Both the position numbers and the translations under genes were made by a program. Shown here in pieces: positions 3,253-46,263 of a stretch of 64,000 nt of DNA. The stretch's first letter is position 1; every line of letters begins with the position of its first letter. Source of the DNA: Lactobacillus intestinalis (lineage in GTDB: Bacteria > Bacillota > Bacilli > Lactobacillales > Lactobacillaceae); contig NZ_CP072983.1 of assembly GCF_024397795.1 (NCBI RefSeq), forward strand, positions 372,001 through 436,000. The letters are read 5' to 3'. The notes below the pieces were generated by a model. It did not search any database, had not been told where the DNA came from, and worked only from the letters and a program-made list of their open reading frames with translations.

Positions 3253-4119
3253 TCATTTAGAAACTCTAAGTACCTGAGAAAGAATATTTTGAAATTCATC
3301 AGCTGTATCTGGTCGATCAATAAAGTTTGCAATATCAATAGCTTTGGTAGCTAATTTGAGATCCTGCTCACGATGAGTAAAGCGATAATTGATTAAGTGT
3401 TGCAAAAACTTTTTGTATAAGCCAGTATAGTGATCTAGCGATGGAATTTCTAATTTATTTATTTTTTCAAGTAGCTTTTTAGCTAATTGAGGATCAGCAA
3501 GGAGCAACGTGGTGGTTGTGTTTAAGAGAGCACCTAGCGCAAAAAGATGATTTGTGTCGCCATCAGCTTTAATTTGATCAAAATTAGCGATAATTCTATT
3601 ACTAATTTTGTAAATTGTTTTGGTATCCAGTAAATTAGTTGCATTTCCAAAAGCAGTAAGATAGTAATTATTCCAAACTTTTGCCTTTAAAAGAATTGAG
3701 GTTAGTTTTTGTTTAGCGCTTGGAGAAAATAGATTTTTATTAGTTTTTAGAAAATAGAAATTACAACCAAGTGCGCTAAGGAAGAAATCGGCATCATCTT
3801 GTGTTTGCTCATAAACTTTCAGTTGTTGAGTAGCTAATTGGCGTAGCTTCGGAATATCGTTAGCTTTAAAAGCTTGCTTAAACTTTAAGGCAAATGGATT
3901 AGAGAATCTTAGAGCTGTCTGTTCTGCAAATTCAGTAGGTAAGACATGAATATTGTAAAGAAGTTGATCTAGTTTTTCTAAGGGCATATTACCTCCTTCG
4001 TTTTCCCAATGGGAGAGACGGGAAGGAGAAAGCCCATTAATGTTGCTTGTTGCTTTTTGTAAAGTTATATTTTGACCAGTACGTAGTTTTTTAAATGTTT
4101 TTCCAAAAGAATTTATCAT
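3253..4119 (-). CDS. Rgg/GadR/MutR-family transcriptional regulator (Rgg-1)
   Basis: 288 residues: an N-terminal XRE-type helix-turn-helix (TLQKATSNINGLSPSRLSHWENEG, about residues 18-42), then an all-helical TPR-like domain typical of Rgg proteins, which bind short peptides in the cytoplasm. The SRLSHWENE recognition segment is a hallmark of the family. Its ATG is only 17 nt from the ATG of a divergent 17-aa hydrophobic peptide gene, the arrangement seen for streptococcal Rgg-SHP pairs. The neighbouring lactococcin-972-like operon is the likely target (inference). Confidence 0.88.
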   Translation of the reverse strand: MINSFGKTFKKLRTGQNITLQKATSNINGLSPSRLSHWENEGGNMPLEKLDQLLYNIHVLPTEFAEQTALRFSNPFALKFKQAFKANDIPKLRQLATQQLKVYEQTQDDADFFLSALGCNFYFLKTNKNLFSPSAKQKLTSILLKAKVWNNYYLTAFGNATNLLDTKTIYKISNRIIANFDQIKADGDTNHLFALGALLNTTTTLLLADPQLAKKLLEKINKLEIPSLDHYTGLYKKFLQHLINYRFTHREQDLKLATKAIDIANFIDRPDTADEFQNILSQVLRVSK

Positions 4120-4136
4120 AAGGAGGACAACCTTTC

Positions 4137-4190
4137 ATGTTTTTAAAGTGGGTATTTAACATTTTACCAATTCTTGAACCGAAGTATTAA
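4137..4190 (+). CDS. 17-aa short hydrophobic peptide, divergent from rgg-1 (candidate signal peptide)
   Basis: Peptide MFLKWVFNILPILEPKY, ATG 4137 and TAA 4188-4190, with an excellent Shine-Dalgarno AAGGAGG at 4120-4126. It is a short cationic-hydrophobic peptide like the SHP precursors of Rgg systems, and is encoded divergently with its ribosome site in the 17-nt gap to the Rgg start codon. A possible promoter (TTGCTT, 17 nt, TATATT) lies inside the rgg coding region. It lies between the regulator and the bacteriocin gene. Expression is not proven; it is inferred from position, SD and composition. Confidence 0.6.
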   Translation: MFLKWVFNILPILEPKY

Positions 4191-4234
4191 TAACTTTCAC
4201 TAGGAAGTATGATAAAAAAGAGGAGTATATTTTC

Positions 4235-4537
4235 ATGATTAAATTAAATAAAAAGATTAAGAAGTTAACAGCTTTGACTACACTAACAGTTACATTAGCC
4301 TTAAGTGCCACGCCGGCTCTAGCTAAAACCGTCCATTATAAAGGTTATGCAGTTGAATGGAATTATGGGCGGACACCAAGTGGTTTATGGGGATATTCTG
4401 AAGTTCAAACGGGTCACTTTACTCATAGAGCCACTGTTAATGGTACAAACTCTGGTTGGAAACGCCCAGGAGTATTAGCTTCTGCCAAGAAATTCATTGG
4501 TAATGGTCATGTAGAAGCTTATTGGGATTGTAAATAA
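4235..4537 (+). CDS. Lactococcin-972-family bacteriocin precursor
   Basis: 100 residues with a Sec signal peptide (MIKLNKKIKKLTALTTLTVTL..., cleavage likely after ATPALA). The mature part of about 69 residues has family features: W-x-Y near the start, THRATVNG resembling the THSATV of lactococcin 972, an Arg-Pro-Gly-Val segment, and an aromatic C-terminal end. Lactococcin 972 inhibits septum formation by binding lipid II. The gene is followed at 11 nt by the family's membrane protein and then its ATPase, which supports the call. Oddity: a single Cys two residues from the C-terminus. RBS AGAGGAG precedes the ATG. Confidence 0.82.
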   Translation: MIKLNKKIKKLTALTTLTVTLALSATPALAKTVHYKGYAVEWNYGRTPSGLWGYSEVQTGHFTHRATVNGTNSGWKRPGVLASAKKFIGNGHVEAYWDCK

Positions 4538-19687: not shown

Positions 19688-20497
19688 ATGAAGTATCCAG
19701 TATTTATTTGCGATGATGATCAGCAACAAATCGAGTTAACTAAGAAGATTTTAGGTGCAGCTGAAATGATCTTATCGGACGATGAAAAAATTGAGTTCGA
19801 TATTGGTTCTGCTACTAATTATTTAGATGCTGTTAATTACCTAAAAGAGCAAAAGCTTGATGGAGGTATTTATTTTTTAGATGTAGAACTAGGTGAAAGT
19901 ACTGAAAATGATAGCGGTTTTGATTTGGCTGCTCTCATTAAGAAGCGTGACGAACGTGCCCAGATTATCTTTGTAACTAGTCATGCTGATTTGTCATTAA
20001 TTACATTTAGAAGACGATTAGGGCCAATTGATTATATTGTCAAAACTGGCGATATTGATGAATTTCGTAAGACGATGGTAAAGACCGTTGAAGTGGCTAT
20101 CTATAATTTACATAAGTTCAACTACATGAAGGCCATGACCTTTTCTTATAAAATTGGTCGTTTAGTAAGAAATGTGAATATTGATGACATTATTTACTTA
20201 ACTACAACGCCAACTCCACACAAACTCTTAATGATTAGACAGACCGGAGAATCTCAATTATTAGGTAGCATTAATCAATTCGACAATGAAAATCCAATGT
20301 TGGAGAAGATAAGTCAGTCTTGTTTAGCTAACCCTAAGAATATCCAATCAATAGACTTATTGGAACGTAAAGTTTTATTTATTAATGGAGACGTAGAGAC
20401 ATTCGCTCGTTCCAGCATTAAAAGAATGCGAGAATTACTTACTAAGTACAATTACACGACTGAAGAACTTGCTAAACGAGAGGACAGTATAGAATGA
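19688..20497 (+). CDS. LytTR-type response regulator of the bacteriocin locus
   Basis: 269 residues: receiver domain with the acidic cluster ICDDDQ, phosphoacceptor Asp65 in YFLDVELG, then a LytTR domain (YKIGRLVRNVNIDDIIYL, ANPKNIQSIDLLERKVLF, ARSSIKRMREL). AgrA/PlnC-type. ATG 19688 has GAGGAG at a better distance than GTG 19685. It overlaps the transporter gene by 4 nt. It probably binds repeats upstream of the pheromone and bacteriocin genes. Confidence 0.9.
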   Translation: MKYPVFICDDDQQQIELTKKILGAAEMILSDDEKIEFDIGSATNYLDAVNYLKEQKLDGGIYFLDVELGESTENDSGFDLAALIKKRDERAQIIFVTSHADLSLITFRRRLGPIDYIVKTGDIDEFRKTMVKTVEVAIYNLHKFNYMKAMTFSYKIGRLVRNVNIDDIIYLTTTPTPHKLLMIRQTGESQLLGSINQFDNENPMLEKISQSCLANPKNIQSIDLLERKVLFINGDVETFARSSIKRMRELLTKYNYTTEELAKREDSIE

Positions 20498-22656
20498 ATA
20501 TTTTCAAATATAGGTCAATCTATATTCCGCAAGTTGATGAAACCGACTGTGGAGCTGCCTGTTTAGCAATGATTTTAAAATATTATCATTCACGAATTTC
20601 TATAGCTCATTTAAGACATATCGCTAAAACTAATACTGAAGGTACGACGGCTTTTGGACTAGTTAAGACTGCTGAAAGTTTTAATATGGAGGTACAAGCA
20701 GTAAAGGCAGATATGTCTTTATTTAATATGGAAGACATTCAATATCCCTTTATAGTTCATGTGGTAAAAGAGGGAAGTCTTTTACACTATTATGTTGTAC
20801 TTAAAAGTACTAAGAATAAGATTGTTATTGCTGATCCGGACCCTACTAGTGGAATTAAAAAGATATCTAAAAAAGCATTTGAAAAGGAGTGGACAGGTGT
20901 CACTTTATTGATGATTCCAAAATCTAATTTTAAAGTAATAAAAGAAAAGAAGACTAATCTTATATCTCTTTTACCTTATTTGTTTAAGCAGAAAACTTTA
21001 ATTAAAAATATTATTTTAGCCACGATACTCGTAACTTTAATTAGTATAGGGACTTCGTATTTTGTTCAAGGCCTAATTGATACTTATATTCCAAATGAAG
21101 CCTACACAATTTTATCTATTTTAGCTATTGGATTATTAATAGCATATGTATTTAATTCTATTTTTCAATATGGCCAACAAGTTTTGTTAAATATATTAGG
21201 GCAACGTTTGTCTATAGATCTTAACTTGCAATACATTAGGCATGTGTTTGAACTTCCAATGGAATTTTTTACTACGCGTAAAACAGGAGAGATTACATCT
21301 CGATTTTCTGATGCTAGTAGGATTATTGATGCTTTGGCCAGAATGGTGATCTCTTTATTTCTTGCTTTATCGATTGTAATTTTGATGGGAATAGTTTTAG
21401 CACTTCAAAATATGACTTTATTTTTAATTACACTTTTTTCTATTCCAATCTATGCAATCATTATTCTCGGATTTACGAAAAAATTTGAAAAGCTAAATAA
21501 TGATCAAATGGAAAGTAATGCAGTAGTAAGTTCTTCAATTATTGAAGATATTCAAGGAATAGAAACTATTAAAGCATTAAACAGTGAACAGATTCGATAT
21601 CGTAAAATTGATGAGCAATTTGTTGATTATTTAAGAAAGGCTTTCAAGTATAGTAAGAATGAGACCTTACAAACAGTACTGAAGACTTTTGTTCGCTTGG
21701 CATTAAATATAGTTGTCTTGTGGGTAGGGGCAATTATTGTAATGCATAACCAAATGTCCATTGGTCAATTAATGGCCTTTAATGCATTATTAGCTTATTT
21801 TGTTGATCCATTGCAGAATATAATTAATTTACAGCCTACTCTTCAAGCTGCCAATGTGGCTCAAAATCGTTTAAATGAAGTTTATTTAGTTAAAAGCGAA
21901 TTTAATAAAACAGCCTCTATTAATAAAATTCAACAAATTGAAGGAGATATTCATTTGACGCATGTTTATTATCGCTATGGATATGGGAGTGATGTCTTAC
22001 AAAATATAAGTCTTAAAATAAGCCCTGGTGAAAAATTAACTATTGTGGGAATGAGTGGTTCTGGTAAATCAACATTAGTTAAATTATTGGTGGCTTTTTA
22101 TAGTCCTACAAAAGGTAAGCTAACCTTTAATAATAAAGCAGTAAGTAATATTGATAAGCATATTCTTCGCTCTTATGTAAATTATGTACCGCAAATTCCA
22201 TGTGTATTTTCAGGAACGATTAAAGAAAATTTGTTATTAGGTAGTCGACCTCATATTTCTGATGAAGAAATAAAAAAAGCATGTCAAATTGCAGAAATTA
22301 AAGATGATATTGAAAAATTACCGTTGCAATATGACACTCCACTTGATGAAAATGCAAAGGTACTATCAGGAGGTCAAAAGCAACGCTTAACGATTGCTAG
22401 AGCTCTTTTAACACCTGCTAAGGTATTGATTTTAGATGAAGCGACTAGTGGATTAGATACTATTACTGAGAAAAAGGTAGTAAATAACTTACTTCAGCTT
22501 AAAGATAAAACTATTATTTTTATAGCCCATCGCTTATCTATCGCTAAAAAAACAGATAACATTATAGTTTTAAGTAAAGGCCAAATTGTTGAACATGGGA
22601 GTCATAAAGAACTGATGGCAGCACAGGGCTATTATTATAATTTAGTAAAAAGTTAG
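20494..22656 (+). CDS. Bacteriocin ABC exporter with C39 leader peptidase
   Basis: 720 residues: peptidase C39 domain (VDETDCGAACLAMILKYY, catalytic Cys19; HYYVVLK His; ADPDP Asp), six-helix membrane domain (about 165-445), then ATPase with Walker A GMSGSGKST, signature LSGGQKQRLTIARAL, Walker B VLILDEATSGLD. It cleaves leaders after GG and exports the peptides at 18100, 23522 and 23700. It is translationally coupled to the regulator gene and followed by its accessory protein. Confidence 0.95.
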   Translation: MNIFKYRSIYIPQVDETDCGAACLAMILKYYHSRISIAHLRHIAKTNTEGTTAFGLVKTAESFNMEVQAVKADMSLFNMEDIQYPFIVHVVKEGSLLHYYVVLKSTKNKIVIADPDPTSGIKKISKKAFEKEWTGVTLLMIPKSNFKVIKEKKTNLISLLPYLFKQKTLIKNIILATILVTLISIGTSYFVQGLIDTYIPNEAYTILSILAIGLLIAYVFNSIFQYGQQVLLNILGQRLSIDLNLQYIRHVFELPMEFFTTRKTGEITSRFSDASRIIDALARMVISLFLALSIVILMGIVLALQNMTLFLITLFSIPIYAIIILGFTKKFEKLNNDQMESNAVVSSSIIEDIQGIETIKALNSEQIRYRKIDEQFVDYLRKAFKYSKNETLQTVLKTFVRLALNIVVLWVGAIIVMHNQMSIGQLMAFNALLAYFVDPLQNIINLQPTLQAANVAQNRLNEVYLVKSEFNKTASINKIQQIEGDIHLTHVYYRYGYGSDVLQNISLKISPGEKLTIVGMSGSGKSTLVKLLVAFYSPTKGKLTFNNKAVSNIDKHILRSYVNYVPQIPCVFSGTIKENLLLGSRPHISDEEIKKACQIAEIKDDIEKLPLQYDTPLDENAKVLSGGQKQRLTIARALLTPAKVLILDEATSGLDTITEKKVVNNLLQLKDKTIIFIAHRLSIAKKTDNIIVLSKGQIVEHGSHKELMAAQGYYYNLVKS

Positions 22657-36058: not shown

Positions 36059-36181
36059 TTATTTATTACTCCCTTTGTTAGACAGCTAATATATAACCTT
36101 CTAAAATTAGTTAACCGTCAAACAAAAGAATCTTTTTTGTTAAAATATAAAAATCATATTTGACAAAAGGGATTGGATGAA

Positions 36182-38170
36182 ATGAAAAATATACGTACCA
36201 TTATAATTTTTATTGTTGGCATACTCTTTTCCATAATTGCCTTCAGTTTTATAAGATTACTGGGTTCGACTTATATTGAGTCAAGTTCTACATCTTATGA
36301 AATTAACGGCATGAAAGGTGGAAATAATACTCAAGAATTTAATAACATCATTCAAGAATTTTCAGACAAACATAATATATCCGCCATAAAAGTCTTTAAT
36401 GTGGTAGAAGGAGGAGCTAGTACAGATATTGTTACCAAAATGCATGTTTATGGTAAAAAGATAGCACTACCGGCAAAAACACAAGCAACTACAGCTGAAT
36501 TTGAAACTAGTGATTTGAGATATCCAATTTATTTTGTGGGAGATATTAAAAAAACTACTATTGAAAATATGTTTAAACGTGAGGGGATTAAATATAGTCC
36601 GATTCATGAAAATTGGAACACCGATATTCTAGTCTTCTTAACTACTAATAATGTTATTTACATTGTATTGCTGATTTTATTGGTTCTATTTATTGTGTTA
36701 GTTCTGACAAATTTATATGCAATGAAAGAAATAAACATTAAGGCCCTATTGGGGATATCGAACTTTGAAGATGCAGCAATAAGTTTTGGAAAGGACCAGC
36801 TTATTTTTACTGCTGCATTTGGAATTGGACTCATTTTGTTAGCTCTATATATGAAAATGCAATCGTATCTTTACGCATATAAAATTATGCTTTACTTTAG
36901 CTTGCTTTTATATTTAACAGTAACTTTAGTGATGATAATTAGTGCGGTAATTCGCGGATTGATTCATTCCCGATATACCATTATGGGTGCAATAAAAGGT
37001 GATAAAAAGAGTAAGTTCTCGTTCTATTTGAACCTCTTTATCAAAGCATTGATTGAAGTTTTCATTTGTATTTCTCTCTTTTCTTTATTAAATACTCAAA
37101 AGAGTGAAAAAGCTTTAAGTGATCAATTGAATGTCTGGATGAATCATAAAACTTTCTATACTGTTAGTGAAAATGCAGTTATGACAAAGGGTTCAGAAAC
37201 TACATATTTAAATCGCCAATCCATGAAATTATTTCACTATTTGGATCAAAAGGGCGGAATGTTAGTTGATTATCAAGGTTGGGATAGTCCTCAAGATGTC
37301 GGTGATCTCAATAATGGAAATGTGATGACCGTCAATGCTCAGTATTTGAAAGAAAATAGAGTGGTGGGAGAAAATGGTAATCGTATAATTTTACCCAAGA
37401 ATTCACCTGTTACTTATGTTTTGATCCCTCAACAATATTATTCTGAGCGTGCTAACTTGATTAAGTCATATCGCAGATCTCTTGCCCTGGATGATACAGA
37501 AAAACAATTAGGACGAAAACTTGAAACTAAAGCTATCAATATTAAAAATAATCAGAAATTGTTTACCTACAGTACTTATGCACTTAGTTTAGGTAATTAT
37601 TCAGGTGCCGTAAAAAATGCAGTTTTAGTGGTGATTTCGAATAATTCCTTAGGCAGTTTAAATTCAAAACTTGACAGCAATATGAATTGGGATTCTTATA
37701 TGTCTAATTCTGCGTTTTTGAGTCCAACACTATCGGCAGTGAAAACTGGAATTCAAAAAACTAATATTAAAAAGTATATTGGAAGTATTTTGAATACTAA
37801 AAGTTATGCAGCTAAGCAATTGGAGATTATTCAAACGGGGATGTTGCTGTCTCTAGTAGTAACTTTGGTAGCTTTTGCTATCGCTTTAGTTGAAAATGTG
37901 GCTTTTAACAGTGTTTATTTCAACAACAATAGTAAGAAACTAGCAATTCAAAGAATTTTTGGAGGAAGTGCGGCCTTACGTTTTGGTAAATTCATTAAGC
38001 TGATTTTTATTTTGAGCTTAATTGAAGCCTTAATTGTGTTCATGTTCACTGGAAGTGGGACTATTTCGCTAGGATTAATTATTGTAAGCAATATATTGGA
38101 GTGGATTTTATTGGTTGTACAAGGGATGCATTTAGATAAACATACTTGGGATTACTTAAAGGGAGAATAA
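36182..38170 (+). CDS. Bacteriocin-associated integral membrane protein (DUF1430), second copy
   Basis: 662 residues with the same topology as 4549-6744: N-terminal helix, extracytoplasmic domain, central helices (about 155-310), second extracytoplasmic domain, C-terminal helices. Sequence similarity to the first copy is modest. ATG 36182 is favoured over TTG 36173 because AAAGGG is spaced correctly for it. The partner ATPase gene starts 1 nt later but is disrupted. No lactococcin-972-like gene is visible next to it, so it may be an orphan immunity or export system. Confidence 0.78.
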   Translation: MKNIRTIIIFIVGILFSIIAFSFIRLLGSTYIESSSTSYEINGMKGGNNTQEFNNIIQEFSDKHNISAIKVFNVVEGGASTDIVTKMHVYGKKIALPAKTQATTAEFETSDLRYPIYFVGDIKKTTIENMFKREGIKYSPIHENWNTDILVFLTTNNVIYIVLLILLVLFIVLVLTNLYAMKEINIKALLGISNFEDAAISFGKDQLIFTAAFGIGLILLALYMKMQSYLYAYKIMLYFSLLLYLTVTLVMIISAVIRGLIHSRYTIMGAIKGDKKSKFSFYLNLFIKALIEVFICISLFSLLNTQKSEKALSDQLNVWMNHKTFYTVSENAVMTKGSETTYLNRQSMKLFHYLDQKGGMLVDYQGWDSPQDVGDLNNGNVMTVNAQYLKENRVVGENGNRIILPKNSPVTYVLIPQQYYSERANLIKSYRRSLALDDTEKQLGRKLETKAINIKNNQKLFTYSTYALSLGNYSGAVKNAVLVVISNNSLGSLNSKLDSNMNWDSYMSNSAFLSPTLSAVKTGIQKTNIKKYIGSILNTKSYAAKQLEIIQTGMLLSLVVTLVAFAIALVENVAFNSVYFNNNSKKLAIQRIFGGSAALRFGKFIKLIFILSLIEALIVFMFTGSGTISLGLIIVSNILEWILLVVQGMHLDKHTWDYLKGE

Positions 38171-38453
38171 AATGGTTCATCAACTTAATGTCAACAATTT
38201 GGGCAAGAGATTTGATAATTACTGGGTATTTCAGAATTTAAATTATAGATTTGAATCAGGAAAGATTTACGCTTTAACAGGACCTTCTGGAGGAGGAAAA
38301 ACCACCTTGTTAAATTGCATAGGAAGATTAACCGATGCAAGTGATGGAGAAATTTTGTTAGATAATAAAGATGTTTCCTCAATCAAAATTCTGAAGTATT
38401 ATCGCAACTATATTGGCTATCTTTTTCAAAATTATGCTTTAGTAGATGATCAA

Positions 38454-38584
38454 CTACCCTAGAATAAATTCTAGGGTTTGCAGCTCTCATCTATTTTTAC
38501 TAGATAGCGGTTATAGCGTCTTGCGACTTCCGCCTCCGAGGCTGCATCGTCGGGCAGTTGACAATACCCGTTTACCTGCCAAGT
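38454..38584 (-). ncRNA. Candidate omega RNA / right-end RNA of the TnpB element
   Basis: About 130 nt after the tnpB stop on the minus strand, with GC-rich segments in an otherwise AT-rich area, several possible hairpins and the terminal CCCTAGAAT/ATTCTAGGG stem (38457-38476). TnpB guide RNAs arise from this position; the guide would then be the host flank starting TTGATCATCTACTAAAGC. The RNA ends are not defined by sequence alone. Confidence 0.55.
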
Positions 38585-39841
38585 TTACTCGGCAGATCTT
38601 AATTTAGTAAATTTAGGTATTTTAACACCTTTGTGGTACTGGTCTCCTAAAAACTGGATATTCATGGCCGCTAGGCGATCGTCATTGGATTTGTAGCCAC
38701 ACTTATCACAAATGTAGAGGTGCAACTCATGGTTGCGGTTCTCCTTGCGGATTCTTCCGCACTTAGGACAGCGCTGGCTGGTAAATCTTGGAGAAACTTT
38801 GACTACAGTTGAAGAATTCAAATTAGCCTTGTAAGCTAAAAACTGCTCAAACTGGTAAAAAGTCCAAGAAACCATTTCATAGCGACGCTTTTTGGCAGCT
38901 TTCTCAGTCGCAAAGCGGACATTGGTTAAGTCTTCTAAAGCAAAGATAGTATTGGGACCGTAATGATCAACGAGTGTCTTGGTAAGGCGATGATTAACAT
39001 CGCTTATAAAACGGTTCTCTCGCTGACCGATCTTTTTAAGTCTTCGCTTGGCAGACTTAGTGCCTTTGGCTTGAAGCTGAGCACGGAGTTTCTTATATTT
39101 GCGCCTGGTGCGCAATACTTTTTGTCCGCTGCAAAGCAGAGTCTGGCCCTGTTCGTCATAGCAGGCAGCCAAAAAGCGCAGACCGCGATCAATCCCAACG
39201 ATGTGCTGCGTCTGCTTTAATTCATATTCAGAAAAGGACGTGGTCGCACTAAGGTGGATATACCAATTATTTTTGAACTGAAGCAGCTTAATTGAGCCAA
39301 ACTTCCAGTGGCTAGAATCAAGATACTGGTCGAAATTTTTGCAGACAAAATCAACTTTCTTTCTCCCCATTAAGGTATTCAAAGAAAGCTGGGTGCTTGT
39401 ATTTAAATAAGACCAGTCGCGATTGCGCTGAAGATCAAGCTGAAGACGCTTAAACTTAACTGGACGCCAAAGCCAAGTGAGATCACGCGGAATCTGCGAC
39501 CAGATAGCATGGCCCTGCGCATCTTTTTCGCCAGTATTATAGCGAAACGGTGTTTGCTTTAATTGGGTTTTGATGGTTCTATAGCGAGCAACAACATTTC
39601 TGATAACCGATTGAGCCATTTGACTTTTAAGTCCAAACAGGTCTCTCAAATCATGATAAAGGACATGATTTAACCGAGAAAACCGAAACTCAAAATCATG
39701 GTCAAAAACATACTGCGAGACGAAATTGCAGGCATCTCTGTATGCAGTCATGGTCTTTATAAAAGCGTGTTCAGTCTCATCATCAATATTAAGGAGCTTG
39801 GCTTTAATCGTTACTGCCTGATCCAAATTATTCACCTCCAA
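38585..39841 (-). CDS. tnpB: TnpB RNA-guided nuclease (IS605 OrfB)
   Basis: 418 residues. RuvC-like catalytic residues look intact: Asp in HIVGIDRGLRF, Glu in FALEDLTNV, Asp in SNDDRLAAMNI. The zinc ribbon is complete (CPKCGRIRKEN ... YICDKCGYKS). The N-terminal helix-turn-helix-like part is present, and length is normal for TnpB. It cleaves DNA guided by the omega RNA next to a TAM, favouring retention of the element. RBS GGAGGTGAA before the ATG. No tnpA nearby, so mobilisation would need one in trans. Confidence 0.93.
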   Translation of the reverse strand: MEVNNLDQAVTIKAKLLNIDDETEHAFIKTMTAYRDACNFVSQYVFDHDFEFRFSRLNHVLYHDLRDLFGLKSQMAQSVIRNVVARYRTIKTQLKQTPFRYNTGEKDAQGHAIWSQIPRDLTWLWRPVKFKRLQLDLQRNRDWSYLNTSTQLSLNTLMGRKKVDFVCKNFDQYLDSSHWKFGSIKLLQFKNNWYIHLSATTSFSEYELKQTQHIVGIDRGLRFLAACYDEQGQTLLCSGQKVLRTRRKYKKLRAQLQAKGTKSAKRRLKKIGQRENRFISDVNHRLTKTLVDHYGPNTIFALEDLTNVRFATEKAAKKRRYEMVSWTFYQFEQFLAYKANLNSSTVVKVSPRFTSQRCPKCGRIRKENRNHELHLYICDKCGYKSNDDRLAAMNIQFLGDQYHKGVKIPKFTKLRSAE

Positions 39842-39901
39842 ACAAGCGTTTGAAAATGATTATATCATAGAAATTAGAGGAGAAAAAGACAAAATATAAA
39901 A

Positions 39902-39961
39902 AGGCTGAAAGTGCAATTCCTCCCCGGATTAAAATCCGGGGTATCCTTGCTTAATCAGCCT
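39902..39961. repeat. Left-end hairpin of the TnpB element
   Basis: Outer stem AGGCTGA (39902-39908) with TCAGCCT (39955-39961) encloses a perfect inner hairpin CCCCGGAT/ATCCGGGG (39922-39941). Subterminal hairpins of this kind are recognised by Y1 transposases. Confidence 0.65.
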
Positions 39962-40331
39962 AGAAGGAGAAATCAATGAAACTATTTTGCAAAATTTGAA
40001 TATAGTAAAGAAGCATAATCGACGTGAGTTAAGTTCTGTACTAAAGCGGTATAATTTATCTGCTGAATATCTAGATCGAAAAGTATTTACTTTATCTGGA
40101 GGGGAGGCTCAACGTGTAGCACTTGCACGATTGAGTTTGCAAGATCCGACAATTATTCTGGCAGATGAACCAACTGGGGCATTAGATCATAAGAATAGAG
40201 ATTTGGTTCTACAAAGTTTACGTAAATTTGCAGATGAAGGCAAAATTGTAATCGTTGCTACCCACGATGATGTAGTCATGTCATTTGCAGATGAAAAAGT
40301 TGATATCGCAAATTATAAATAATTGAATCCC

Positions 40332-42511: not shown

Positions 42512-42544
42512 TAGAATAAGTTTATAGTTTAAAAGATATACACA

Positions 42545-42580
42545 AATACGCTCTAGTGAAATGCTAGAGCGTATTTTTTG
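42545..42580 (+). terminator. groEL terminator; copy A of a repeated hairpin
   Basis: AATACGCTCTAG/CTAGAGCGTATT 12-bp stem with T-run. A copy with one base change is at 46271-46304. Confidence 0.9.
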
Positions 42581-42631: not shown

Positions 42632-42742
42632 CTAATATAAGAAGCGCTGTGCAAGTGAGTTGATGACATTGGCGCCAACAACTACCAATGCGCCACCCCA
42701 AACGATTGAAGAGATAAGTTTAATAAATTTAAATTTTGACAT
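42632..42742 (-). CDS. 36-aa hydrophobic peptide divergent from rgg-3 (candidate signal or small bacteriocin)
   Basis: Begins MSKFKFIKLISSIVWGGALV and ends NSLAQRFLY; basic N-terminus then a hydrophobic core. On the minus strand GGAGG (plus-strand 42751-42755) stands 8 nt before its ATG, and only 13 nt separate it from the rgg-3 ATG, the same divergent layout as the rgg-1 pair. It is longer than streptococcal SHPs. It could instead be a leaderless bacteriocin or a small membrane peptide. Confidence 0.6.
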   Translation of the reverse strand: MSKFKFIKLISSIVWGGALVVVGANVINSLAQRFLY

Positions 42743-42755
42743 AATGGTGACCTCC

Positions 42756-43616
42756 ATGAATAAATATAATAATTTTGGTTTGAAGTATAAAACTGCTAGA
42801 AAAGAAAAGGGAATTTCTCAAGAAGAAGCTAGTAAAAATGTGACTTCGCGCGCTCGCTTATCGCGGTGGGAGCGAGGAGAGGTGACGATGCCTTTTGAGT
42901 TAGTGTTGCAGTTATTAAAAAATATCAATATGTCTTATGCAGACTTTATGAGGGATGATTCTGAAAAAGAGAGTCATTTCTTAGCGCGGGTGCAAGATCT
43001 ATATATTGATAACAAAACTGCGGAGCTAAAAGAATGGGCTAAAGATCTTTTAGCGCAATATCATCAAAATACCAATCATAGAGAAATCTTGAAAAAGGCC
43101 GCAATTATAGCTAATTTCTATTTAGATCTAACTAATGAAAATTTACTAGCAATTTCTGATGCTCGTGAGATTGAACTTCAGCTTGAAAAGATTGAAACAT
43201 GGTATGATAACGACATTATTTACTTTGGTAATGTGCAGTTATTGTTGAATCCAATTAGTGTGTATCATCTTAGCAGAAATATTAATAGTTCAATTTATGA
43301 TAGAAAAAATGAAGTGAATATTGAATATGTTTTCAACGCTTTGATTAATGCAGCCTGTGTACTGATTAAGAGTAAGTTAGTAAGACAAGCTCAAGAAGTA
43401 GTAAAGATTTCTCGTAAATTGGAATTGCTAGGCTATCATCTGTTAGAAAGTTATCGTTTAAAGTATGTAGAAGGACTGTTGGCATATGCGCAGACTAAAG
43501 AGGATAAAAAATTACAAACATTGTTTTCTAAGTTAGCAGTTTTACCTTCGTTTGATCAATTACTTAGCGATTTCAAATTTGGTTTTTCTCAAATTAAAGA
43601 AATATACGCAATCTAA
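42756..43616 (+). CDS. Rgg-family transcriptional regulator (Rgg-3)
   Basis: 286 residues: XRE HTH with ISQEEASKNVTSRARLSRWERGEVTMP (about residues 20-45), then a helical TPR-like domain. The SRARLSRWERG segment is the family recognition motif also seen in Rgg-1. ATG 42756 is chosen; the frame is open further upstream to 42660, but that part is antisense to the 36-aa peptide gene and has a non-Rgg composition. It precedes helveticin-like gene 2, the likely target. Confidence 0.85.
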   Translation: MNKYNNFGLKYKTARKEKGISQEEASKNVTSRARLSRWERGEVTMPFELVLQLLKNINMSYADFMRDDSEKESHFLARVQDLYIDNKTAELKEWAKDLLAQYHQNTNHREILKKAAIIANFYLDLTNENLLAISDAREIELQLEKIETWYDNDIIYFGNVQLLLNPISVYHLSRNINSSIYDRKNEVNIEYVFNALINAACVLIKSKLVRQAQEVVKISRKLELLGYHLLESYRLKYVEGLLAYAQTKEDKKLQTLFSKLAVLPSFDQLLSDFKFGFSQIKEIYAI

Positions 43617-43806: not shown

Positions 43807-44793
43807 GTGGTAAGAATTACTAATCCTAATATAAGTTTGGCTTATAATCTGAATCACTATCAGCCCAGTCTACCGGGCGATGGAGATGATGATCTCTATC
43901 ATGTAGTTGTTCAAAAAGGAAATGTTGGAGAAAGCTACGTTTATGCTCTACAGTTGCTTCATAATGGGCATAATATTTATGTATTTCGTGGTCGGCGTCA
44001 GACTGACGTTGCATTTGCAAAAAATGATCCGGTTTTAAGACTTATTGGACAAGGGGACTATACTGCTGGCGGACATACTCAAACTTGGGAATATGCAGGT
44101 CGATCTGGAGATTGGTTAGTAGGTACAAAACCAAGTAAAGACGATTGGACTATTCAAATTACTCGTGTTCATATTCCTGATGGAACAAGAATTTATGAAA
44201 ATATTAAACTTCCACGCTTGTCTCACTTAAATTATGCTGGAGAATTCCATATTGATATGAAAAGAGTAGAAGCAGCGGTTTCACCAGACTATCAAAGCTT
44301 ATTAATTGCCAGTGTGGATCAAACTGGAAATGGCTACTTCTCAGTTTATAGTATGAAACAAGCCAATGATAAGTTGACAGATTCTCAATATCATGTTTCT
44401 AATGGAATAATTCCTGATGTAGATATTAGAAGCTTAGATTTACAGAAATCATTTAGAATTCCTAATATTACTGATTCTTCAAAAATTGGTTCTCTTCAAG
44501 GATATGATATTGATAATGGAGCTAATAATATTTATGTTTCAAGTGGATTTGGTCCTGGGACTGATGGTTATAAAACAGATAAATCAAGAAAAATTATAAA
44601 GATTCCATGGAATACTACAGAAAAGTATCAATGGAGTGAGATTCCTTTAGATGGAACCAATGAAAATGGCTATATTATTGAACCTGAAGGACTACAATTA
44701 ATTAGTGATAATGATGTATACGTAACTATTGCATATCATGAAGTTGGAGATAATTTAACTGTCATGAATCGAATTTATAGAGTAAGCTGGTAA
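43807..44793 (+). CDS. Helveticin-J-like class III bacteriocin, copy 2
   Basis: 328 residues, no signal peptide, GTG start with a weak TGAGG site. Motifs match helveticin J: YHVVVQKGNVGESYVYALQLLH, AGGHTQTWEYAG, LPRLSHLNYAG, VEAAVSPDYQSLLIAS, SLQGYDIDNGANNIYVSS, VYVTIAYHE. Same length as copy 1 but diverged, so not a recent duplication. It is placed between rgg-3 and a SLAP surface protein and ends at a long palindromic terminator. Confidence 0.87.
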   Translation: MVRITNPNISLAYNLNHYQPSLPGDGDDDLYHVVVQKGNVGESYVYALQLLHNGHNIYVFRGRRQTDVAFAKNDPVLRLIGQGDYTAGGHTQTWEYAGRSGDWLVGTKPSKDDWTIQITRVHIPDGTRIYENIKLPRLSHLNYAGEFHIDMKRVEAAVSPDYQSLLIASVDQTGNGYFSVYSMKQANDKLTDSQYHVSNGIIPDVDIRSLDLQKSFRIPNITDSSKIGSLQGYDIDNGANNIYVSSGFGPGTDGYKTDKSRKIIKIPWNTTEKYQWSEIPLDGTNENGYIIEPEGLQLISDNDVYVTIAYHEVGDNLTVMNRIYRVSW

Positions 44794-44868: not shown

Positions 44869-46263
44869 ATGAATAAGAAAATAAAGATAATAAGTTTAGC
44901 AAGTGCGGCATTACTTACAATTAGTCCATTAATAACTACCCCCGTAAGTGCGGCTACGAATGCGACTATGACGTCAAATTCTGTTAAAAATAGTGAAATA
45001 TATTTTACTTATAATGATGAAAAAATTCCAGATAATGGAATTGTCCCATTAAAACAGGGACTTCCTGTTAAGGAGGGAGAAACTCTTTATGAAATTTACC
45101 AGGCTGCTAAAGAAACAGTAAAATTGACTGGCCCTAATTCTACAACAGATGTAAATTATGATCCTTCTGAGATTGCAAATCAGTTGCGTGACCAAAATGT
45201 TTCATTTGTAGGTGGAGAAAGATCTGCTGCTAAAATTATTGCGCCAATTACGGGTTTTACTTTAAAGCTTACGGGGTCATATGTTAATAAAGCAGGCGAT
45301 CGTAAAAATACGACTGTGAAAGTACCATTTGGAACGGGTGAAGTTAAGAATGCACCTCAGTTCCAATTGGAATATATCCAAGATGGAAAGAAGCAAACTC
45401 TTAATCCTAATAGCATGACTTTCCAAATTGCTAAAACTTCTAAGTTTAATTCATTAAATTTTATTGGAAGCAACGGGTCTACTTATAAAATTATGGCTAC
45501 TGGGTCTGCAAGTGATTCTAAAAACGTAAATATTAAAGTATTGAAAAATGATGTTGATACCACGAAATCGGGCAGTTTTGGATTGGTACAATTACAAGCA
45601 ACTAATTCTGAAGGAAAATCTTCAATAATCTCTTTCACAATCTTGGTTAGTCCTGAAGGTAAGCAAAAGTTAAATCTTATGCCAAGTGACTGGGTGGCAG
45701 CACCTGAAGGGTATCGGACTTTTGTTCAAGGAGCAGAATATTACATAGGCAATGAAACTAAAATTGAAAATGGCGTTTCTTATACGCGTATTTATCCCAC
45801 TTCGAATAAAAAAGACGGCGTCTGGTTTCAAACTATGTATCTTGCAAATCCTTATCCAGCACCTAAAATTGTTGAAAAGACCATCATGCATCGTGCATTA
45901 GCATATTCTTTGGGTGGTGGAAGCAAGTATCGTCACTATCCAGCCTTTAAGAAGATTTACGTAAAAAGTACACCAGTAGAGTTTAAAGGTGGAAAATATT
46001 ATCAAGTTTTTGAAAAAGATGGTACCTATACTAGCGATTATTTGAAGGTGTCTAATATTGATGGAATCAAGCGTACTTTAAAGCATAATGCTTATGTTTA
46101 CGCAACAAGTACGCGTCGGGCTGATCGTCAGGTCTTGAAGAAAGGCACAAAGGTCACTACTTATGGTGGTTCTTACAAATTCAAGAATGGTAAACGTTAC
46201 TACCGAATCGAAGGAGCTACGAAGACGCATAAGCGTTATGTAAGAGTTTCAAATTTTGAATAA
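44869..46263 (+). CDS. Secreted SLAP-domain surface protein
   Basis: 464 residues: Sec signal peptide (cleavage likely after PVSAA, about residue 29), a beta-rich central region (about 40-270) of unknown role, and C-terminal tandem SLAP modules (about 340-464; KTIMHRALAYSLGGG, LKHNAYVYATSTRRADRQVLKKGTKVTTYGG, RYYRIEGATKTHKRYVRVSNFE). SLAP domains bind the cell wall non-covalently. It sits downstream of the helveticin gene and could help retain or present it at the surface (inference). RBS AAAGGAAAA. Confidence 0.85.
   Translation: MNKKIKIISLASAALLTISPLITTPVSAATNATMTSNSVKNSEIYFTYNDEKIPDNGIVPLKQGLPVKEGETLYEIYQAAKETVKLTGPNSTTDVNYDPSEIANQLRDQNVSFVGGERSAAKIIAPITGFTLKLTGSYVNKAGDRKNTTVKVPFGTGEVKNAPQFQLEYIQDGKKQTLNPNSMTFQIAKTSKFNSLNFIGSNGSTYKIMATGSASDSKNVNIKVLKNDVDTTKSGSFGLVQLQATNSEGKSSIISFTILVSPEGKQKLNLMPSDWVAAPEGYRTFVQGAEYYIGNETKIENGVSYTRIYPTSNKKDGVWFQTMYLANPYPAPKIVEKTIMHRALAYSLGGGSKYRHYPAFKKIYVKSTPVEFKGGKYYQVFEKDGTYTSDYLKVSNIDGIKRTLKHNAYVYATSTRRADRQVLKKGTKVTTYGGSYKFKNGKRYYRIEGATKTHKRYVRVSNFE

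Follow-up and report, generated by a model that had tools for sequence, protein, structure and literature searches.

A divergent glycine-motif peptide gene beside rgg-3 of Lactobacillus intestinalis, a candidate pheromone precursor

Peptide signalling through Rgg-family regulators has been worked out chiefly in streptococci, where the precursor of a short hydrophobic peptide (SHP) leaves the cell, is trimmed and returns as a ligand of Rgg (PMC13361665, PMC7018657; here and below, published systems are described from parts of the cited papers). We describe a pair of related layout in Lactobacillus intestinalis, within a stretch of 64,000 nucleotides (assembly GCF_024397795.1, contig NZ_CP072983.1, positions 372,001 to 436,000 of the forward strand; hereafter the window, whose numbering we use): a 36-codon frame on the minus strand that is divergent from the regulator gene rgg-3. 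Judged from its sequence and that of its relatives, the frame is a real gene and not a chance opening, and it probably is translated into the precursor of a peptide pheromone that the neighbouring Rgg-3 senses.

The streptococcal Rgg/SHP groups I and II, e.g. Rgg2/SHP2 and Rgg3/SHP3, likewise consist of an Rgg receptor and a divergent gene for a short basic-hydrophobic peptide, and like them the window genome has EcsB, an M50 protease and peptide-binding proteins. SHPs of these groups carry a conserved Asp or Glu (PMC13361665), whereas the window peptide has none; SHP2 and SHP3 are 22-23 aa long (PMC4162386), whereas the window peptide has 36 aa and a glycine motif in its middle; and group I and II promoters are intergenic (PMC13361665), whereas the 13-nt gap of the window pair cannot hold a promoter. 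Since two group I/II features, the acidic residue and the intergenic promoters, are lacking, we class the pair as a variant of the Rgg-peptide systems and not as an SHP system. In SHP group III the peptide gene is convergent and overlaps the end of rgg, unlike the divergent layout here. A first-pass annotation of the window had remarked that the peptide is longer than known SHPs and might be a new class of signal, and at 36 aa it is indeed longer than the SHPs described in the literature cited and unlike them, which makes it a candidate for such a class.

The peptide gene (42632..42742, minus strand), identified by direct reading, family and selection, runs from ATG to TAG and encodes MSKFKFIKLISSIVWGGALVVVGANVINSLAQRFLY. 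Its ribosome site GGAGGT (42750..42755, minus) lies 7 nt before the ATG, and sequence reading together with the peptide alignment places the motif W-G-G-A-L-V-V at residues 15-21 (codons at 42680..42700, minus). On the plus strand a ribosome-site-like GGTGA (42746..42750) stands 5 nt before the rgg-3 ATG at 42756, and so the two stretches face each other inside the 13-nt gap between the start codons; the minus-strand frame with GGAGG in that gap, as first annotated, is thus confirmed by direct reading. An in-frame upstream ATG would lengthen the peptide to 41 aa, and no ribosome site was seen before that ATG. A separation of 13 nt between the start codons implies, by layout alone, that either promoter sits within the opposite gene and that the two messages overlap.

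The rgg-3 gene (42756..43616, plus strand) encodes a 286-aa Rgg-family regulator. The protein exceeds the Pfam cut-offs for HTH_3 (32.0, cut-off 23) and Rgg_C (44.8, cut-off 27) and scores 29.5 against NCBIfam TIGR01716, below the cut-off of 36.9. Solved Rgg and RopB chains, including the pheromone receptors Rgg2, Rgg3 and Rgg144, are sequence-profile matches in the PDB, and the same three proteins are the best fold matches (in an alignment of five rows) of a predicted model with pLDDT 89; on the query the TM-score is 0.57-0.67 for the named Rggs with an rmsd near 9, the domain angles being different or unsure. The closest other rgg-3 match in 61 genus genomes is 37% identical.

A translated N-terminal extension of rgg-3 from 42660 onward, which the first-pass annotation had named as evidence that would speak against the peptide gene, was looked for in homologous loci and is not favoured as the true start, given the homologue starts and the short upstream openings. 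In nine clade loci compared, the Rgg frame is open for 6-43 codons further upstream, and in only three of them for about the length of the peptide frame; the homologue starts, placed close to the equivalent of 42756, were assigned from their position and ribosome site and partly by our own choice. One database protein (P0002, 317 aa) begins at an upstream start, which may explain why the peptide has no annotation.

Recurrence and anatomy of the peptides

Regions upstream of Rgg genes were surveyed in 88 rows from the genus and 42 from other genera, after omission of 20 Rgg matches without a hidden Markov model (HMM) start or start codon. Our rule asked for an opposite-strand ATG at 9-25 nt, a ribosome site of at least 4 nt and 20-60 codons. 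Such a frame was present in 20 of the 37 genus rows scoring at least 200 bits and in 2/51 scoring less, and among controls in 0/42 Rggs of other genera, 4/375 other genes and 1.4% of 7400 shuffles, the Rgg enrichment being flattered because the rule was fixed after a first look at the loci. Fifteen of the 20 rule-passing loci have peptides of the glycine-motif kind. With an added demand for hydrophobicity the values become 13/37, 2/51, 0/42, 0/375 and 0.5% of shuffles, respectively.

Five pairs of glycine-motif peptides show more silent than amino-acid-changing differences per site, namely 0.25/0.94, 0.18/0.47, 0.20/0.58, 0.24/0.59 and 0.25/0.41 (amino-acid-changing/silent), and two pairs of another peptide class by 0.17/0.57 and 0.39/0.69. 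Three distant glycine-motif pairs gave 0.43/0.45 (L141/L146), 0.48/0.74 (window/L140) and 0.41/0.87. A blind search of 75 genus genomes with a profile of 19 peptides returned 24 matches at E <= 0.0016, the 19 members and five new ones (the part of a list running to E 1 that was followed up singly); four of the five adjoin an Rgg gene or what is left of one (G019:C36, G019:C31, G025:C5 and G035:C30) and the fifth sits inside a 696-aa frame. The profile matches at L195 and L197 are antisense within another frame. Among 397 family genomes, nine outside the genus match at E <= 0.01: the match in G208 is a peptide of 34 aa that contains GGG and lies 139 nt away from an Rgg, and the other eight, with no Rgg alongside, were taken as chance. 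The new match in G035:C30 (L204) duplicates the L135 peptide exactly, some 5.5 kb from it, beside a probable short Rgg N-terminal remnant.

The 22 peptides (21 from the genus and that of G208) are 24-52 aa long and align on the glycine motif. Each opens with a basic-hydrophobic front of 11-15 residues; the motif begins between residues 12 and 16, and the variable tail extends 3-33 residues past an eight-residue block; the motif reads [IWFL]-[GN]-G-[GAS]-[LI]-[VI] or has the variants SSG, EGS, GDS, GSI, GGL and GGI. The start codons of peptide and Rgg are 13-21 nt apart in 18 loci, 124 nt in L139 and 139 nt in L211; in L140 and L181 the Rgg start is uncertain. Among 161 pairs drawn from 19 peptides, with Rgg identity below 40%, the block is the most alike (37% identity), ahead of the front (22%) and the tail (9%). 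The tail is the part whose similarity best tracks that of the Rggs (Mantel r 0.46, none of 2000 permutations as high), with lower values for the front (0.23, 8/2000) and the block (0.21, 81/2000). A conserved front and block with a tail that tracks Rgg is the pattern expected of a precursor that is processed through common signals and ends in a part specific to its receptor.

In a tree of 121 Rggs (omitting Rggs under 200 aa, loci L192, L121, L123 and L125 and a weak second L144 row), Rgg-3 falls in a four-row group (99/97), all four with glycine-motif peptides, nested in a 28-row clade (100/99) in which 17 rows have a glycine-motif peptide, eight have none and three have another short frame. 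A 33-row clade has no such peptides, and the genome's third Rgg (L049) falls there. The Rggs of L151, L152, L153 and L154 form one clade (100/93), and beside them we noted a second class of divergent peptide, 45-54 aa long, 17-23 nt from Rgg and with a K[FL][FI][FY][LI]P-like stretch.

How the pair may work, and other readings

If the peptide is a pheromone precursor, its basic-hydrophobic front and glycine motif would direct it to an exporter, probably of the PptAB/EcsAB type, and to cleavage, for which a membrane protease of the Eep/RseP kind is one candidate. All or part of the variable tail would re-enter through an oligopeptide permease and bind the helical C-terminal domain of Rgg-3, which would then switch at the shared leader and perhaps also at the helveticin and SLAP genes downstream. 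Secretion, cutting, re-import, binding, regulation and targets are all inferred. The genome holds EcsB, one M50 protease and eight SBP_bac_5 proteins, a count of families present only; we take EcsB to be the counterpart of PptB and the M50 protease that of Eep. Among 14 control genomes EcsB matched in 2, the M50 family in 14 and SBP_bac_5 in 11, so that only EcsB is at all selective, the others matching most controls.

That the peptide is an end product under Rgg-3 control, a small membrane-active bacteriocin or self-acting toxin and no signal, seems unlikely to us. The peptides are hydrophobic, basic and 24-52 aa long with a glycine-rich core, and some neighbouring loci have C39 transporters or lactococcin-972-like genes, as such a product might lead one to find; but in the window no further gene accompanies the peptide gene before the groEL terminator (a terminator-like hairpin at 42544..42576, plus strand, towards which the peptide gene runs from the other side; one such hairpin found, 0.7 expected), the tail diverges together with Rgg, and the peptide is lost in relatives that retain Rgg. 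The first of these points and the variation of the tail with Rgg also leave the leaderless bacteriocin proposed in the first-pass annotation without support. The frame could instead be a leader that acts by transcription or translation across the rgg start, as antisense control, with a product that has no role. In 18 loci the two start codons, separated by 13-21 nt, do force the transcripts to overlap, but it is the amino-acid sequence that is conserved and not the frame alone, and the peptide gene lies 124 nt (L139) and 139 nt (L211) away in two loci, and we regard this reading as distinctly improbable. Short frames are common, many of them in the window itself, but a chance open frame is contradicted by the enrichment, the selection and the blind profile search, and hardly deserves belief.

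Several observations weigh against a pheromone precursor sensed by Rgg-3. Promoter signals are not above chance (5 promoter-like sites, 6.7 expected), and no common -10 position was found upstream of the peptide genes. In the first two distant pairs listed above the excess of silent differences is scant or saturated, and the correlation of tail with receptor can be obtained from shared descent alone. The 36-aa peptide has a single match among 5.8 billion proteins, the window's own. In the 28-row clade, L156, counted among the 17 glycine-motif rows, is frameshifted (sister L132); L145, among the three rows with another short frame, is a frameshifted relative of the peptide of its sister L143; and L158 (sister L131), whose frame of 40 codons lacks both motif and ribosome site, has, like seven more rows, no recognisable peptide beside its Rgg. 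Since the Rggs of L156, L145 and L158 are intact, the pairing is not obligatory, although the frameshifts, in draft genomes, may be sequencing errors. Broken frames beside an intact rgg, the other finding that had been expected to speak against the pair, occur in these loci, which are related to the window locus but not orthologous.

We still consider a pheromone precursor sensed by Rgg-3 the probable reading of the window pair. For the peptides as a group, the chances are about even that they form a new class of Rgg-sensed pheromone in Lactobacillus, with precursors of 24-52 aa, a glycine motif in a fixed place, a receptor-specific tail, and genes mostly face to face with Rgg across 13-21 nt, whose mutually antisense messages would be coupled at the RNA level. 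If this is true, the frameshifted peptides beside intact Rggs would mark signal-blind or eavesdropping strains.

Neighbouring genes and the rgg-1 locus

Downstream of rgg-3 lie a helveticin J-like gene (43807..44793, plus; Pfam Helveticin_J 153.3 bits, cut-off 25.5), a possible target of Rgg-3, and a gene for a SlpA-domain surface protein (44869..46263, plus) that passes the Pfam SlpA cut-off; both flanking genes had been correctly recognised at first pass. Matches to groEL were found in 70 relatives and 29 of the loci were fetched. Behind groEL, all 29 lack matches to rgg-3 and to helveticin, a weak SLAP match occurs in one (L281) and mutS in 15; these neighbourhoods indicate that the rgg-3 set is an accessory insertion between groEL and mutS.

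In the 28-row clade a helveticin match stands directly downstream of Rgg at the window locus only (26 of the 28 rows listed, the other two being a contig edge and a cut gene model), and at L161 and L162 helveticin matches occur close to an Rgg that lacks a peptide of the glycine-motif type. A helveticin module as a rule is thus rejected: of the recurring unit of Rgg, peptide and bacteriocin first proposed, the Rgg and its divergent peptide recur, and in this clade helveticin directly follows Rgg at the window locus alone. Genes near the peptide loci vary, including helveticin and SLAP matches, C39 transporters (L139, L140), secretion-like small proteins and, by eye, ABC-like genes. The downstream gene looks secreted in 8/26 loci vs 98/480 other genes (p = 0.21), a test weakened by controls from the same loci. 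Nothing passed the cut-offs in a Pfam scan of ten downstream proteins or an NCBIfam scan of ten, partly different ones, and a family scan of two 45-aa pieces among the downstream genes gave no match. Phage and plasmid records, from which the organism's own records may be omitted, gave no match.

The rgg-1 gene (3253..4119, minus) has a divergent 17-aa peptide (MFLKWVFNILPILEPKY; 4137..4190, plus). The architecture had been called the same as at rgg-3, and the spacing of the start codons, 17 nt, is indeed similar; but the peptide has no glycine motif, and rgg-1 belongs to a separate three-row clade with peptides of 17-20 aa (19-20 aa in L071 and L074). The peptide at 4137 is therefore a separate class, and the window does not hold two independent cases of one module. 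Beside this pair (3253-4537) we noted a lactococcin-972-like protein under the Pfam and NCBIfam cut-offs. Elsewhere in the window (36173-40322), a DUF1430 membrane protein gene is followed by an ABC ATPase gene split in two (38172-38462 and 39987-40322), the pieces being separated by an OrfB_IS605 gene (38585-39841, minus).

Comparison with described peptide systems

A broad survey of Rgg peptides relied on resemblance to mature peptides already described and discarded any Rgg for which there was none (PMC9765709), a criterion by which a Lactobacillus class could be missed. The RRNPP_detector survey also sought small peptide genes beside receptors and gave 6 candidate Lactobacillaceae clusters (PMC10075063); the portion of its text covered here describes no glycine-motif Lactobacillus class, and its supplementary tables may hold some of the pairs. 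In the literature searched, with subscription papers mostly outside it, no title concerned an Rgg-helveticin link or such a peptide class in Lactobacillus, and the one paper mentioning both Rgg and helveticin is a general review. If the peptides signal, lactobacilli would offer ready sender-receiver pairs that may control helveticin and surface proteins, in a compact layout with overlapping signal and receptor transcripts.

Two further arrangements were seen outside the glycine-motif loci. The first belongs to another genus: at L207 (G161:C2), where the Rggs are in tandem, and at L218 (G215:C1), hydrophobic frames of 36-42 aa diverge from Rgg at distances of 48-83 nt, and their cores include VIIVIGG and IVIIVG. 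At L125 (G003:C9:5000-10000) a frame of 23 aa (MKNKTKILSALILLLDILIIVGG) diverges from a genus Rgg at a distance of 82 nt, and its last eight residues, DILIIVGG, fit the Streptococcus pyogenes SHP pheromone DI[I/L]IIVGG (PMC13361665); the likeness points to a possible signalling code common to both genera.

Like the double-glycine peptides cut by C39 peptidases, the window peptide has G-G after a leader-like front. The genome has one C39 peptidase ABC transporter (720 aa, window 20494-22656), which suggests a double-glycine bacteriocin locus nearby; but of the 16 genomes in which glycine-motif peptides occur, 10 lack any C39 match, and all but one of these 10 are at least 90% complete, and so C39 cutting is not the general route. 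At L139 and L140 (G007:C24 and G029:C24) an Rgg with a glycine-motif peptide lies near a C39 transporter, and L140 also has two short frames with a leader ending in VVGG/TVGG.

The leaderless communication peptides of the RopB clan, known also from Limosilactobacillus reuteri, are similarly divergent from Rgg/RopB; they are mostly 8-10 aa long and have no leader (PMC10518010), whereas the window peptide has 36 aa and a leader-like front. The pneumococcal RtgR/RtgS system resembles the window pair in that an SHP-like peptide without an acidic residue is encoded divergently from its Rgg (PMC7018657).
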